A stretch of DNA of 45,660 bases from Deltaproteobacteria bacterium (GTDB taxonomy: Bacteria > Desulfobacterota > Syntrophobacteria > Syntrophobacterales > Syntrophobacteraceae). This document shows positions 2,738 to 12,550 of this stretch, piece by piece. The position numbers and the translations under genes are program-made. The stretch covers positions 1 through 45,660 of the forward strand of contig JAJYDE010000033.1 in assembly GCA_021777755.1 (NCBI GenBank). The letters are read 5' to 3'. Under the pieces are notes generated by a model, which worked only from the letters and a program-made list of their open reading frames with translations, was not told the origin of the DNA and made no database searches. Positions within the stretch are counted from its first letter, which is position 1; each line of letters opens with the position of its first letter.

Positions 2738-5578
2738 TCAGGGTCGGGTGCCCGCCATGAATTGCCTGAGCTCCTCGAGCACCCGTGGAAAGAGGCTTTC
2801 GGAAAATCGAAGACCTGTGGCGGCGATAAGAGAATGCCTCCTGTAGGGGTCGATTTCGAAGTTCCAGGGGCGAAGCTCCATTGAGGTGCCTTTTTGCTTC
2901 AAGTGACGCTGAAATCTTTCCATCTCGGCAACAAGCCCGTCATATTCATCCTTGCCGTAGACCCTGCCTTCGTACTCGCCAAACGAGCAGTCGCCAAACG
3001 AGAGGAAAAGCTCTTTTCCCGAATGCTGATCGTGCATTTGCCGGGTGACCCGGAATTCGGGGCGGCTGGCGAAGAAGGGATCGAACTGGTAGAGTTCGAC
3101 AAAACCGGTGTCGGGGACAAGGCTCGAAAGATCCGCGGGCCGCTCGGCCGAGGTGCGGTCGAGAAACGATCTCAAGTACCTGCACATGAGGGCGAAGTCT
3201 TCTTCGGGGGCGGCAAGGCCGACGCTTACGATCCTCGCGTGCCCCTGGCCGAGCGGAGGCTCGCCGTTTATCACCCGTATGCGTTTGCCCAGGGGCGCAT
3301 CGACTTTGCCGAGATATTCCATGAAACGCTGGGCCAGGAGGTCTTTTTTCATGTAGTCAAGGCCCCCGGAACCCACCTGCAGGCTGTCGAGGTCCTGTTG
3401 ATATTCGAAGTTGCTGGCGAAGACCAAAAAATTGGACCCGGCTGTTTTCATGAGGTGAAAGCCTTCTTTTTCGAAACCGGCCAGAAGGCTCATAGTGTGG
3501 TTTTTGAGGTTTATGTCCCGTATCACGTCGTTTTCGCTCTCACCTCGACAGAGGGCTTTTTTCACCAGGATTTCATGGATCCAGTGAGTCCACCAGGTGG
3601 TGGAGAGCATGAGCGTGCTGATGATTTTGCGGACCTCCGCAGGGAGATCGACGCCGTGATAGGAGAGGGGAGGGCCGAGTTCGAAATCCTCGGCCCGCAC
3701 CTCTTTGAGCCTCATGGCCTTGATTCTGTCACCGTTTCTGAAGCAGCGAAGCCATGTGTCGAAGGTATGCAACAGCCTTATTGCGGGAATCGTCTCGCCG
3801 GCGGCCAGTTTTTTTTCCATGTCGGCGTAGCTTTCCAGCTCCAGTTCCCACTGGTAGTGCACATCGAGCAGTTCCGGATAGCCGCAGTTCTCGTAAGCCC
3901 CCGCGTCGAACTGCTCCTTGAGGTATTCCCAGTCGACGTACAATTTCTTTCTAAGGCGTCTATCCTCGAGAAAATCGGATGAAAGAGTGTGCCCGAGGAT
4001 CCCTCTTTCGCCGTCGAGAAAAACGTTCTTTCCAATAAATTCGAAGACCGTGCTTTCGGGGTTTAGAATCGCGCCTCCTTCCCCTGATAGAGTCAAGGGG
4101 GCGCCATTGACGTCCCTGGTCTTCATCAGGTAGGGTTTCCCGTAGGCCACGGCCGAGACCGCCTCATGCGAGGTGGTGTGGCCGTCGACGCGCACAATGC
4201 CACGGACCCTGGGGTGGTTTACGGCCAGATCGCCCTTGCCGAAAGTGCTCCTGCGAAGCAAAATAACGTCTTGACCGCGTTCTGCCAGCTCCAGGGCGGC
4301 CTCGCTGCCAAAGACCAACACCCCCATGTCGGCGCAGTCGGTAACCGGCTCTCCGGCGGCAAGGGTGCGGAAATCGGTGAAATCTTCCCTGAGGGCTTTT
4401 TCGGGCTGGGCCAAAGCCTGGTTTATGGCCAGGGAGGCAAGCTGGATGGTGGTTTTTCCCTCGTCGATCATATCCCACATGGCCCGTACGGTCGCACTGC
4501 AGGTGGTTCTCATCGGGCGACGCTGGAGAATGAAGAGCCGGCCGGATTCCACCGTGAATTCGATGTCGATCGGGCGTTTGGCGCGCGATTCGAAAGCGTT
4601 GCGAACAAGGAGCAGCATCTCGAATATGGCGGGATAGGAAACCTTGAGGTCCTCGGCCTGCAGAAGCTCCTTCCTCAGTTTTCCGGAAACAATCTTGTCG
4701 CACTGCACCCGGGGTGCCCATTCGATGATCGGATGGTTCGCCCCGGAGCGCTGCTCGCGGGTAAAGAGCACCCCGCTAAGAGACTTGTCGTCCCTGTGGC
4801 CGAAAACCATCTGTTGAACGATTGCCGCGGTGCCCATCGACTCGGAGACGGATTCACCGGGACGCTCGCGGCTTGCACGGGCTTCAACGGCAACCGGCGC
4901 CATCCAGGAGGCGAAAACCGCTTCGATCACATTCTTCAGCTGTCCCCGCGGGCTGGTTTCAAATCCTGGCGGAAAATTGGGGTGGTGCGCGCGGTTCAAA
5001 ATGTCCTTGAATGCCGTGATAAGGGTTCTTAACCCCTCGGGCGGAATTGAGCCCTCCACGCCGAACCCTTTAATGATGCGGTAAAAATCGTCGTAGGCAA
5101 GATCGAGGACCACTTCGCCGTACATGCGAATGGAGGTGAGATAGGTGGTCAGTACGAAGGTTTCGTTTTCACCCGCCGCGATCATGGCCTCGGCCACATG
5201 GTCGTTGATGCCGACGTTTAGCGCGGTGGCAAGAGCGCCGGGAAGCGAAACCGGTGCCCCTCCGCGTACCGCAACCAGCAGGGGCAACCCCCCGCTTTGA
5301 TCGCCGAATTTGCGCCCGGTGCGCTCTTCAAGGGATGCAAGCTCGCAGAGTGCGGCTTCAAACAGGCTTTCGGGAAGCGAGCCTTGCGAGCGATTGTAAA
5401 GGCGCCAGCTTTCCGTTGTGAGGATGAACCCGTCGGGAACGGCGATTCTATCCTCCATGCCTGGAAATATCACGCGAATATCCCGGTAGTCTTCCGCCAG
5501 CTTGGCACCTTTTGCTCCGAGAAGGTCGATATTTCCAGGGTCGGTTTTGGCAAACGGGATGATCAGCGGACTTTGCAT
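2738..5578 (-). CDS. PEP synthase / PPDK-like phosphotransferase lacking the PEP barrel
   Basis: A 946-residue protein. Its first third is the ATP-grasp-like nucleotide domain of pyruvate phosphate dikinase and PEP synthase: LLGAKGAKLAE, VPDGFILTTESWRLYN, VAVRGGAPVSLPGALATALN and IDIEFTVESGRLFILQRRPM. Next comes the swivelling phosphohistidine domain, LLRRSTFGKGDLAV then GHTTSHEAVSAVAYGKPYL, with the phosphorylatable His at about 471. From about residue 570 on I do not recognise the PEP/pyruvate TIM barrel; a different C-terminal part of about 370 residues takes its place. The acceptor of the phosphate is therefore unknown; rifampin phosphotransferase and glucan dikinases are precedents for swapped acceptor domains. 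The ATG at 5578 has GGAGG eight bases upstream, better than the TTG/GTG starts just before it. It lies 104 bp behind the fused PFOR on the same strand, so a link to pyruvate metabolism is likely. Confidence 0.8.
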   Translation of the reverse strand: MQSPLIIPFAKTDPGNIDLLGAKGAKLAEDYRDIRVIFPGMEDRIAVPDGFILTTESWRLYNRSQGSLPESLFEAALCELASLEERTGRKFGDQSGGLPLLVAVRGGAPVSLPGALATALNVGINDHVAEAMIAAGENETFVLTTYLTSIRMYGEVVLDLAYDDFYRIIKGFGVEGSIPPEGLRTLITAFKDILNRAHHPNFPPGFETSPRGQLKNVIEAVFASWMAPVAVEARASRERPGESVSESMGTAAIVQQMVFGHRDDKSLSGVLFTREQRSGANHPIIEWAPRVQCDKIVSGKLRKELLQAEDLKVSYPAIFEMLLLVRNAFESRAKRPIDIEFTVESGRLFILQRRPMRTTCSATVRAMWDMIDEGKTTIQLASLAINQALAQPEKALREDFTDFRTLAAGEPVTDCADMGVLVFGSEAALELAERGQDVILLRRSTFGKGDLAVNHPRVRGIVRVDGHTTSHEAVSAVAYGKPYLMKTRDVNGAPLTLSGEGGAILNPESTVFEFIGKNVFLDGERGILGHTLSSDFLEDRRLRKKLYVDWEYLKEQFDAGAYENCGYPELLDVHYQWELELESYADMEKKLAAGETIPAIRLLHTFDTWLRCFRNGDRIKAMRLKEVRAEDFELGPPLSYHGVDLPAEVRKIISTLMLSTTWWTHWIHEILVKKALCRGESENDVIRDINLKNHTMSLLAGFEKEGFHLMKTAGSNFLVFASNFEYQQDLDSLQVGSGGLDYMKKDLLAQRFMEYLGKVDAPLGKRIRVINGEPPLGQGHARIVSVGLAAPEEDFALMCRYLRSFLDRTSAERPADLSSLVPDTGFVELYQFDPFFASRPEFRVTRQMHDQHSGKELFLSFGDCSFGEYEGRVYGKDEYDGLVAEMERFQRHLKQKGTSMELRPWNFEIDPYRRHSLIAATGLRFSESLFPRVLEELRQFMAGTRP

Positions 5579-9567: not shown

Positions 9568-9816
9568 AGTGATGCACTCCTGAAGGAATCAAGTTTTTTT
9601 TGTGGAGCAAAAGGCAACGGGTGCGGGAGCAAACGAGGTTCCATCGCGAAGAGGTGGTGGAGCACCCGAGTATGGAAGTTTAACCATGAACCTTAAATTG
9701 GGAAAGGGTTCATTGTTTGCCCGAGGACCTGATCACAGGTGCATCGAGTCGAAACGTCCCGCAAAGAATCAGGGCTACATTAAAAGAAAGGCGGAAGTCA
9801 AAGAGAAAACATTCAC
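9568..9816. other. Intergenic region between divergent PFOR and diaphorase operons
   Basis: About 250 bases hold no gene I can support. An open frame at 9602-9820 has no ribosome-binding site and a biased, low-complexity translation. The right-hand end leads into the promoter and palindrome listed next; the left end must contain the PFOR promoter, which I could not place. Confidence 0.5.
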
Positions 9817-9845
9817 TTGACGGCGGCCCCCGGGGGTGGTAAAAG
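9817..9845 (+). promoter_or_regulatory. Sigma70-type promoter of the RHH-NuoE operon
   Basis: TTGACG at 9817-9822 and TAAAAG at 9840-9845 are separated by exactly 17 bases. They match the -35 consensus in five of six positions and the -10 in four of six. The predicted transcript would start close to 9850-9853, inside the palindrome listed next, about 30 bases before the start codon at 9882. Confidence 0.55.
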
Positions 9846-9849
9846 GCGC

Positions 9850-9864
9850 GTTAAACAGTTTAAC
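9850..9864. promoter_or_regulatory. Candidate operator: 15-bp perfect palindrome
   Basis: GTTAAAC-A-GTTTAAC is a perfect 7-1-7 inverted repeat lying directly downstream of the predicted -10 element and over the expected transcription start. A repressor bound here would block initiation. The gene that follows encodes a ribbon-helix-helix DNA-binding domain, so autoregulation is the simplest reading. This is an inference from position and symmetry. Confidence 0.6.
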
Positions 9865-9881: not shown

Positions 9882-10598
9882 ATGGACAAGGCAAAGACCC
9901 GTATGGTTGGCGTTAGGGTAAATAAAGATCAAGAGAAGATGCTCTCCAAACTTCAGGAAAAATCCAAACTGACCAAATCCGAACTTCTTCTAAAGGGGTT
10001 GGAGACTCTGGCCGAATATTCCGATCTGGGGCAGCAGCACCTGCCGATGCAAACCGAGCTTGAACGGCTCGAAAAACAGGCTGTGCACCATCTGGCCAGT
10101 CTAAAGCAGATTCGGCGAAAAGAGGAGGCCATAAAGGACTTCATTCGCGAGATCCGGCAGGTCGATGAGATCATCGACAAACACGGGGCGGACTCAAGCA
10201 TGCTCATCCAGATTTTGCTCGATGTGCAAAAGCAGATGCACTGGCTCTCCAAGCCTTCACTGGTGTGGATATCCGAGCGACTCCAGGTGCCCATGACCAG
10301 GATAATGCAGATCGCGTCGTTTTACACCATGTTCAGCCTCGAGCCTCAGGGCCGCCAGACCGTCCAGGTTTGCATGGGCACGGCCTGTCACGTAAGGGGC
10401 TCAAACGAACTGCTGGCCAGGACGGAATCGGTTTTGAACTTGAAGCCGGGGCAAACCGACGCGGACATGAAGTTCACCTTGAAGACGGTCAATTGCCTGG
10501 GCTGTTGTGCTCTGGGGCCGGTAATGACCGTCGGGGGCGCCTATCACAGCAATCCGTCGGTGGCGGAATTGAAAGAGCTGGTTGACGAGCAGAAATAA
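9882..10598 (+). CDS. Ribbon-helix-helix domain fused to NuoE/HydC-like [2Fe-2S] subunit
   Basis: A 238-residue protein with two parts. Residues 100-238 are a NADH dehydrogenase 24-kDa (NuoE/HndA/HydC) subunit: a helical bundle, SEVRLQ-like ISERLQVPMTRIMQIASFYT, then a thioredoxin-like fold with [2Fe-2S] ligands C164, C169, C205 and C209 (CMGTACH and CLGCCALGP). Residues 7-45 are extra. RMVGVRVNKDQEKMLSKLQ followed by KLTKSELLLKGLETL has the strand-helix-helix pattern of CopG/Arc-type ribbon-helix-helix DNA-binding domains, and a charged, coiled-coil-like helix (55-100) links the two. Normal NuoE proteins lack such a domain. The ATG has AAGGGGG six bases upstream. It is the first gene of a three-gene operon whose promoter holds a perfect palindrome, so the subunit may also act as a redox-responsive regulator. 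DNA binding is inferred. Confidence 0.88.
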   Translation: MDKAKTRMVGVRVNKDQEKMLSKLQEKSKLTKSELLLKGLETLAEYSDLGQQHLPMQTELERLEKQAVHHLASLKQIRRKEEAIKDFIREIRQVDEIIDKHGADSSMLIQILLDVQKQMHWLSKPSLVWISERLQVPMTRIMQIASFYTMFSLEPQGRQTVQVCMGTACHVRGSNELLARTESVLNLKPGQTDADMKFTLKTVNCLGCCALGPVMTVGGAYHSNPSVAELKELVDEQK

Positions 10599-10618: not shown

Positions 10619-12550
10619 ATGAAAAAACTCAAGTCCGTCGTTGCGCTTAAGCAGTTCCAGGAGGGATTGCTGGCGGAGCAAAAGGGGATCAAGAAATCGA
10701 TCGCTATTTGCGAAGGCACGGGTTGCCATGCATACAAGTCCGGAGCGGTTGCCGATACGTTCGAAAACGAGATCCGGCGGCGCGGCCTGGAAGGGCGGAT
10801 AATCATACGCCGCACGGGGTGCCACGGTTTTTGCGAGCGAGGACCGATGGCCAAGATTTTCCCGGAAAAGGTCTTCTATTTTCAGGTAAAGCCCGAGGAT
10901 GTCCCCGAGATAGTCGAAGCGACCATTTTGAAGGGCGAGTTGGTCGACCGGCTTCTTTTCCTGGATGAAAAGACGGGGAAAAGATGCGCCTACCAGGACG
11001 AGATCCCTTTCTACATGCTGCAAAACCAGGTCGTTTTCGGCAATAACTTCATGATCAGCCCCCGCAGCATCGAAGACTACATCGCGGCGGGAGGCTATTC
11101 GGCCCTGGCCAAGGCGCTTTCGACCATGTCGCCGGTCGATGTGCTCGAAGAAATCAAAAAGTCCGGTCTTCGCGGCCGAGGTGGTGGAGGATTTCCGGCC
11201 GGAATAAAGTGGGAGACCACGCGCAATGCCCCCGGAGACCCCAAGTACGTCATCGTAAACGCCGACGAGGGCGACCCCGGGGCCTACATGGACCGATCGA
11301 TTCTTGAGGGCAATCCCCACAGTGTTTTGGAAGGATTGATGCTGGGCGCCTTTGCCATAGGCTCGACCAAGGGGTTTGTGTATGTGCGCCAGGAATATAC
11401 CATCGCCATCGAAAACCTGCCCGTCGCTATCGAGCAGGCAAAGCAACTGGGCCTTTTGGGTGAAAATATCCTTGGAACCGACTTCAGCTTCGATGTGATG
11501 ATTCACCAGGGGGCGGGGGCTTTCGTCTCGGGTGAGTCGAGCGCGCTTATGAGCGCCATCGAGGGGCGCGTGGGTGAACCTCGTCCGAAGTACATCCGAA
11601 CCGCGGTAAAAGGGGTCTGGGACAAACCGAGCAATCTCAACAACGTGGAAACCTGGGCCAATGTGCCCCTGATCATCAACAACGGCTCGGAGTGGTTCCG
11701 CTCGCTTGGCACCGAGGGCAGCAAGGGCACAAAGATCTTCTCCCTGGTGGGCAAGGTCAAATACACCGGGTTGGTCGAAGTCCCGATGGGGGTCTCCGTG
11801 CGCCAGATCGTCTATGATATAGGCGGGGGCATCAGAAACGACCGAAAGTTCAAAGCGGTCCAGACCGGCGGGCCTTCGGGCGGTTGTATTCCGGAAAAAT
11901 TCCTCGATCTGCCGGTGGATTTCGACGAACTGAGCCAGGTCGGCTCCATGATGGGTTCGGGCGGCATGATCGTCATGGACGAAGACACCTGCATGGTGGA
12001 CGTGGCCAAATACTTCACAAATTTTCTGGCCGATGAATCCTGCGGCAAATGCGTACCGTGCCGTGAAGGACTGAGGCAGATGAAGCGCATTCTAACGGAC
12101 ATCACCGAGGGCAGGGGAGAGCCGGCCGATCTTGAAACCCTGGAGGAACTTGGCGCGTTCATGAAAGACGCCTCCTTGTGTGCCCTGGGGCAGACGGCGG
12201 CAAATCCGGTGCTTAGCACCCTCAACTATTTCCGGGACGAATACGAGGCGCACGTACGCGACAAGAAATGTCCGGCACGGGTCTGCCGCGAACTAATCGT
12301 GTTCCATATCGACCCGCGGAAGTGCTCCGGCTGTGGAACCTGCCGCAAGCAGTGTCCGACCAACGCCATTTCGGGGGACAAGAAAATCGTTCATATAGTG
12401 GACCAGGAAAAATGCATCAAATGCGGAACCTGTTTTCAGGTTTGTCCTGCGCGCTTTAGCGCTGTTACCCGGTTGCCCGGCGGACCCGCGCCCGCGCCGG
12501 TTCCCTACGGGACCGCAGTTGTGCAAAAAGCAAAGGGGGAAAGCAAATGA
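10619..12550 (+). CDS. NuoF/HydB-like NADH-oxidising flavin subunit
   Basis: A 643-residue protein in the arrangement of HydB/HndC of NAD(P)-linked hydrogenases. First comes a thioredoxin-like [2Fe-2S] domain (C31, C36, C68, C72). Then the FMN- and NADH-binding 51-kDa domain: GLRGRGGGGFPAGIKWE, NADEGDPGAYMDRSILEG and ESSALMSAIEGRVGEPRPK. The NADH-4Fe4S domain has ESCGKCVPCREG near residue 474 and a further Cys in SLCALGQ. Last is a C-terminal double ferredoxin (CSGCGTCRKQCP near 569, CIKCGTCFQVCP near 598). It exchanges hydride between NAD(H) and one-electron iron-sulfur carriers in the cytoplasm, possibly with flavin-based bifurcation. It starts 20 bases after the NuoE-like gene and overlaps the next gene by four bases (ATGA). 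Confidence 0.92.
   Translation: MKKLKSVVALKQFQEGLLAEQKGIKKSIAICEGTGCHAYKSGAVADTFENEIRRRGLEGRIIIRRTGCHGFCERGPMAKIFPEKVFYFQVKPEDVPEIVEATILKGELVDRLLFLDEKTGKRCAYQDEIPFYMLQNQVVFGNNFMISPRSIEDYIAAGGYSALAKALSTMSPVDVLEEIKKSGLRGRGGGGFPAGIKWETTRNAPGDPKYVIVNADEGDPGAYMDRSILEGNPHSVLEGLMLGAFAIGSTKGFVYVRQEYTIAIENLPVAIEQAKQLGLLGENILGTDFSFDVMIHQGAGAFVSGESSALMSAIEGRVGEPRPKYIRTAVKGVWDKPSNLNNVETWANVPLIINNGSEWFRSLGTEGSKGTKIFSLVGKVKYTGLVEVPMGVSVRQIVYDIGGGIRNDRKFKAVQTGGPSGGCIPEKFLDLPVDFDELSQVGSMMGSGGMIVMDEDTCMVDVAKYFTNFLADESCGKCVPCREGLRQMKRILTDITEGRGEPADLETLEELGAFMKDASLCALGQTAANPVLSTLNYFRDEYEAHVRDKKCPARVCRELIVFHIDPRKCSGCGTCRKQCPTNAISGDKKIVHIVDQEKCIKCGTCFQVCPARFSAVTRLPGGPAPAPVPYGTAVVQKAKGESK

Follow-up and report, generated by a model that had tools for sequence, protein, structure and literature searches.

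A predicted ribbon-helix-helix domain on a NuoE-type iron-sulfur subunit and the possible autogenous control of its diaphorase operon

Anaerobes must balance NADH and ferredoxin, and the tuning of diaphorase operons is, to our knowledge, poorly known. The 45,660 bp stretch of DNA analysed here (the window; contig JAJYDE010000033.1, Syntrophobacteraceae) holds such an operon, and its E subunit raises a simple question: why should an electron-transfer protein begin with what looks like a DNA-binding domain? A sequence-only reading had described an open reading frame of 238 codons starting with ATG, in which a ribbon-helix-helix (RHH) domain and a NuoE domain are joined in one chain. We recovered the frame as it was described, the RHH part by prediction. 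From sequence, structure models and analogy we think it fairly likely that this NuoE-type subunit binds DNA and represses its own operon autogenously, in the manner of PutA.

The fusion protein and the fold of its N-terminus

The features of the locus are collected in Table 1. The NuoE/HydC-like domain was expected to be complete and it is so; the cluster ligands Cys164, Cys169, Cys205 and Cys209 are invariant in all eight aligned fusions. The NuoF-type partner gene that marks a NuoE-type subunit adjoins it (10619-12550) and is conserved in the genus loci. The protein thus resembles the NuoE, HoxE and HydC subunits of complex I, HydABC, NfnABC and StnABC in its domain, its four cluster cysteines and its neighbour; unlike them, it adds the RHH part and a linker, i.e. 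about 90 residues. Among 58 solved chains that match the fusion the best belong, as E/C subunits, to enzymes of the bifurcating and complex I types, and the matches begin at query residue 87 or later, with one exception at 55. When the full-length model was used for a fold search, it was mainly residues 84-238 that were tested. The linker is common to two proteins, from genomes G183 and G469, in which a receiver domain precedes NuoE (REC-NuoE, see below). The window's own genome (95.8% complete) contains two other NuoE-type genes, which are distant (26 and 28% identical), which makes the fusion the probable E subunit of the adjoining diaphorase rather than a spare regulator.

Table 1. Features of the RHH-NuoE locus, with positions counted from the first letter of the window
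Feature	Position	Strand	Basis or remark
Divergent single-chain 2-oxoacid (PFOR-type) oxidoreductase, 1294 aa	5683-9567	-	Pfam POR_N, POR, PFOR_II, TPP_enzyme_C
GTTTAAC half-site in the PFOR-side intergenic part	9678-9684		3/6 exact; 2 differ at one position (one of them is also displaced by 1 bp); absent from 1
Second conserved block that contains GTCAA-N15-TTGAC and extends into the -35	9794-9821	+	27/28 columns invariant in 6 genomes
Candidate -35 hexamer TTGACG	9817-9822	+	Read from the sequence; TTGAC invariant in 6/6
Candidate -10 hexamer TAAAAG, 17-bp spacer, weak	9840-9845	+	Read from the sequence
Candidate operator GTTAAAC-A-GTTTAAC = GTTAAACnGTTTAAC / GTTAAACAGTTTAAC	9850-9864		Perfect 7-1-7 palindrome, 15 bp
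RHH-NuoE fusion protein, 238 aa	9882-10598	+	ATG start
Predicted ribbon-helix-helix domain, residues 7-47	9900-10022	+	AF2, PDB matches, DUF6290/RHH likeness, pN/pS 0.081
Long linker helix, residues 56-100	10047-10181	+	AF2; aligns with the proteins of G183 and G469
NuoE/HydC-type [2Fe-2S] thioredoxin-like domain, residues 94-236	10161-10589	+	PF01257, E 2.4e-46; PDB matches
NuoF/HydB-like NADH- and FMN-binding subunit, 643 aa	10619-12550	+	Pfam; 88-91% identical, full length, four genus loci
HoxU/NuoG-N-terminal-like ferredoxin subunit, 195 aa	12547-13134	+	Pfam Fer2_4; 81-89% identical, four genus loci

We considered whether the N-terminal part could be a spurious upstream extension caused by a wrong start codon, and rejected this, as the protein has 238 residues in all six genus members (one with a GTG start) and is under purifying selection. 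The uncorrected pN/pS, taken over 15 pairs from the six genus genomes, comes to 0.081 for residues 7-47; the linker has 0.162 and the NuoE domain 0.135. In other words, the RHH part is the most constrained segment of the fusion, and its value in comparison to that of the NuoE domain argues that it is not a chance frame.

The sequence evidence for an RHH domain, taken alone, is weak. Pfam RHH_3 matches the N-terminal piece with an E-value of 0.016 and 15.6 bits, which is under its curated cut-off of 21.6; remote family members may score lower than such a threshold, so the shortfall is not decisive. A match to NID, which we take to be a eukaryotic domain, scored about equally; it is absent among the fold matches listed and was judged to be spurious. 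At an E-value of 0.5, RHH_3 matches six of the eight fusion members (best E 0.0095), and a polysaccharide-synthesis model matches four of them with a still better best value (0.0068), meaning that E-values of this size are near noise. A stretch of 52 residues from the L009 protein gave no family match at E 0.01. The N-terminal profile also picked up two free-standing proteins of 71 residues, and the one that was tested scores above cut-off with both DUF6290 and RHH_3. An hhalign comparison of the N-terminal domain with these two proteins gave 88% over 34 columns, a value that is not independent since the pair had been found with the same profile. These stand-alone DUF6290 proteins differ from the fusion in having 71 residues and no enzyme domain. 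A sequence search of the N-terminal profiles against solved structures returned nothing relevant at E 1, the one chain seen (E 0.46) being irrelevant.

The predicted structure is more informative. The AlphaFold2 model of residues 1-51 alone has a mean pLDDT of 84.8 and consists of an extended segment followed by helices 15-28 and 32-49, the ribbon being placed at about residues 7-13 by analogy. No strand is assigned in the monomer, which is expected if the ribbon forms only in the dimer. The rows listed by Foldseek for this model are mostly RHH proteins; all E-values are at least 0.3 (best 0.30) and are not significant singly, so that the evidence is the consistency of the list. A similar picture was obtained with VIA, where the best 50 of 107 aligned chains are for the most part what we take to be RHH proteins, with a middling maximum Z of 7.0. 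The same 50 include five entries for other transcription factors (5zkt, a plant TCP domain according to its title, 7vp2, 7vp3, 7vp4 and 7vp7) and a few rows that we could not place. The RHH domain of Escherichia coli PutA (2ay0_C) superposes on the model with Z 7.0 and 0.9 A over 44 residues at 14% identity. This superposition (model residues 5-48 on PutA residues 2-45) puts Arg12, which is invariant in all eight fusions, on PutA Lys9, a residue that is reportedly implicated in DNA recognition, going by the title of a paper. By prediction, then, the N-terminal domain of about 50 residues has an RHH fold, and the model, with its extended segment before two helices, agrees with the strand-helix-helix pattern that had been read at residues 7-45.

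Distribution of the fusion and its neighbours

The fusion is present in six of the 11 genus genomes (84-100% identical) and in two genomes of another family of the class (50%), i.e. the extension recurs in orthologues, and the N-terminal domain was found in eight of 55 genomes across the class. In a third genome of the other family (G043) the gene is cut by the contig end before the N-terminal domain, so it was left unscored. A peptide-pattern scan of genome contigs returned nine loci, five with the fusion and one with a truncated gene; these six coincide with G007, G005, G008, G041, G010 and G043 and were not counted twice. Among 395 sampled genomes of the phylum, no further RHH-NuoE protein was seen. 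Weak matches at E 0.01 came from 12 genomes of this sample: one is the window's own genome, one a REC-NuoE protein and two are stand-alone RHH-like proteins, and the other eight were taken to be unrelated on reading them. Weak matches of the linker profile in G101 and G242 resemble, again by reading, the coiled coils of seryl-tRNA synthetase. Two peptide patterns found no relative in viral contigs.

Downstream of the fusion gene (E) lie the genes of the other two subunits, F and U. The NuoF/HydB-like protein begins with a thioredoxin-like [2Fe-2S] part and has 4Fe-4S sites at its C-terminus. The divergent PFOR gene adjoins the fusion gene on the same contig in all six genus genomes that have the fusion. 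The five genus genomes without the fusion (88-97% complete) are also without the 1294-residue PFOR, their best matches being 30-32% identical. Fusion, PFOR and the palindrome described below are present or absent together across the genus genomes; the locus travels as a unit, and the co-occurrence alone is no proof of binding. In the other family a 2-oxoacid oxidoreductase encoded by several genes lies downstream of the E-F-U operon in convergent orientation (L026 4736-8442, L084 3971-7583). As the pairing is kept despite the different gene order and enzyme type, it suggests that the complex moves electrons between 2-oxoacid, ferredoxin and NAD(H), and the NADH diaphorase probably works with a 2-oxoacid:ferredoxin oxidoreductase.

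Two further observations concern the same enzymes. Four genus genomes have an additional E-F-U set (L079-L082), in which the E subunit is plain and the upstream neighbours differ. In G007 there is a second PFOR copy, 86% identical to that of the window, on a 10-kb contig (L086 6285-10148) that is without E-F-U genes and without the exact palindrome.

A candidate operator and the readings of its function

Downstream of the candidate promoter and ahead of the ATG of the fusion gene there is a palindrome, GTTAAACAGTTTAAC (9850-9864). It falls inside the 9817-9864 stretch which the sequence-only reading had named for a binding experiment. The site is also readable as two near-palindromic 7-mers 8 bp apart, an arrangement which, we presume, recalls the tandem boxes of MetJ. 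The palindrome arms are letter-perfect in all six genus loci (with A at the centre in four of them and C in the other two), unlike the spacer between the -35 and -10 hexamers, which varies among the same loci. The exact palindrome occurs once per genome in each of the six genus genomes with the fusion, always at the fusion gene, and in none of the five without; within the 11 genus genomes searched, the candidate operator is thus exact only beside the fusion gene. The reversed control pattern has two exact sites across these 11 genomes. When up to one mismatch was allowed, the pattern gave one site in the window's own genome (the operator itself) against two for the control, and nine sites in the genus genomes against ten, three of the nine being inexact (two in G003 and one in G010). 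As the loose sites are not enriched over the control, exactness, place and conservation alone speak for an operator. Part of this conservation is shared descent, since the genomes of the genus are closely related and pass the locus on in one piece.

How readily such a site arises by chance was estimated by shuffling the letters of this intergenic region: a 7-1-7 palindrome was found in 20 of 2000 shuffles, and perfect 7-bp inverted repeats with gaps of 0-12 in 102 of 1000. A loose palindrome search of the window alone with up to three mismatches was uninformative (one match, 0.9 expected). Outside the genus, G045 of the other family has GTATTACAGTATTAC 26 bp before the ATG (32 bp in the window), with the same GTnnnAC-n-GTnnnAC layout and the words again 8 bp apart; G041 of that family keeps just one good half-site, the first. 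The operator is the one place in the window that has this layout; the six loci in which it was counted (65 kb) have it four times, three times at these operators and once elsewhere.

The promoter itself is a candidate as well, and the promoter scan at its threshold called no sigma-70 promoter here. The two candidate hexamers place the transcription start inside the palindrome. The second conserved block, which is found once in the window's own genome at up to three mismatches, is possibly the site of an activator or of a second regulator.

In the mechanism that we propose, two chains would dimerise via the ribbon and helix 2, and two such dimers could sit side by side on GTTAAACnGTTTAAC, where they would overlap the expected transcription start and block RNA polymerase. 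The subunit would leave the DNA either upon its uptake into the diaphorase by NuoF and HoxU or upon a redox change of its cluster, and the operon would then be expressed. Which signal acts is a guess, and we consider assembly state more likely than redox state: feedback from assembly would need only that NuoF binding hides the RHH domain or splits the dimer, and redox sensing would need coupling through the 45-residue helix. No separate regulator gene was seen in the operon. If the proposal is true, supply would be tied directly to the assembly of the complex or to the state of the cluster, no separate regulator being needed, and the principle known from the flavoenzyme PutA would hold for an iron-sulfur subunit from the complex I family as well.

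PutA (trifunctional proline utilization A) is the obvious precedent. It carries an N-terminal RHH domain on a redox enzyme, dimerises via this domain and is the autogenous repressor of its own regulon (PMC5293562). The likeness consists of an RHH domain (here a predicted one) and a redox enzyme in one chain, with PutA among the top structural rows. PutA differs in being a flavoenzyme that moves to the membrane, whereas the carrier here is the [2Fe-2S] subunit of a multi-subunit NADH diaphorase. Outside the RHH domain no relation to PutA was seen; the fusion lacks the proline dehydrogenase and P5C dehydrogenase domains of the PutA family proper, and only PF01257 reaches its Pfam cut-off. The sequence-only reading knew of no described electron-transfer subunit with its own DNA-binding domain. 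The open-licence full-text literature agrees with this in that no description of an RHH-carrying iron-sulfur diaphorase subunit was found among the matches listed. The principle of joining an RHH domain to a redox enzyme for autogenous control is already known from PutA, and it is the carrier for which no description was found.

The same data can be read in other ways. The RHH fold might do no more than dimerise the diaphorase as a structural clamp, and the palindrome would then belong to another regulator. We find this unlikely, in spite of several points in its favour. In G183 and G469 a receiver domain replaces the ribbon and helix 1, and helix 2 and the linker are kept, which means that helix 2 has some further role apart from contacts with DNA; an RHH domain can dimerise its carrier too, as is stated for PutA (PMC5293562); and the conserved 28-bp block further upstream is a sign that a different regulator may be at work. 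Against it, however, stand the invariance of Arg12 on the presumed DNA face and the restriction of the exact palindrome to the fusion gene, which is unlike the sites of a multi-target regulator. The suggestion that the palindrome is an RNA leader hairpin or a product of chance, with the RHH domain binding elsewhere in the genome, seems to us very improbable. The site does lie between the presumed transcription start and the ribosome-binding site, GTTAAA-CAG-TTTAAC could by reading form a short A+U-rich hairpin, and loose matches are no commoner than those of the control pattern. But such a hairpin would have six weak pairs at most, and the arms do not vary by a single letter, nor does any compensatory change point to pairing.

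A narrower form of autogenous repression, contained within it, would be a true redox-sensing repressor, in which the state of the [2Fe-2S] cluster sets the affinity for DNA and couples the expression of both diaphorase and PFOR to the NADH/ferredoxin balance. This is the version closest to what the sequence-only reading had proposed, and we hold it to be doubtful. One chain holds both the RHH part and the cluster, whose ligands are invariant, and PutA is described as switching with both proline level and flavin redox state, although flavin reduction lowers its affinity for DNA only 2-fold (PMC5293562 for both). The long helix of residues 56-100 parts the two domains, and no coupling path is evident. 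As for the PFOR, the half-site on its side is exact in half of the six genomes but it is missing in one and may simply be the -10 element of the PFOR gene; control of the divergent PFOR by the fusion protein is thus weakly supported by the letters of this region.

Receiver-domain relatives of the E subunit

The REC-NuoE protein of G183, which was found by the N-terminal profile, has a receiver domain (Response_reg, E 1e-28) before the same helix 2, linker and NuoE domain. A search of 85 genomes of the class of G183 gave a second one in G469, 55% identical to the first. Both share the NuoE clade and the linker with the fusion and differ from it in what stands before helix 2. A tree was calculated from 43 NuoE domains, including nine RHH rows (one of them the truncated gene of G043) and 26 plain rows chosen from earlier matches. 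The RHH forms and the REC forms of G183 and G469 fall in one clade (99/96), apart from the plain rows. The G183 and G469 rows are long branches that meet, as the tree program warned. The branching order within the clade is unsure: the RHH rows form one side of a branch in 11% of the bootstrap trees, an arrangement that is not rejected (p 0.33). In one line, then, the subunit carries a domain of the DNA-binding type, and in the other the same subunit carries a phosphorylation input.

Six more REC-NuoE rows come from family f72 (L060, L062, L063, L065, L066 and L069). They are six of the nine REC-NuoE rows listed for this family, and aligning them to the G183 protein is what identified their receiver part. 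A tree in which all REC rows form a single clade is rejected (p 0.006), so the f72 proteins represent a separate gain.

We suggest, as a tentative generalisation, that the E subunit of NADH-linked E-F-U diaphorases may be a recurrent socket for regulatory domains: an RHH domain in one clade, where it would act as an autorepressor sensing cluster or assembly, a receiver domain on the same linker in a near relative, where a histidine kinase would be in control, and a receiver domain gained again in a third line. Electron-transfer subunits would, if this is true, act directly as inputs to gene regulation and as its outputs. The REC-NuoE gene of G469 (L087) is preceded by those of a histidine kinase of the cache type and a sigma-54 response regulator. 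The REC-NuoE genes with a linker of the RHH-NuoE type are located at 1036-2160 on the reverse strand of L041 and at 4236-5366 on the forward strand of L087.
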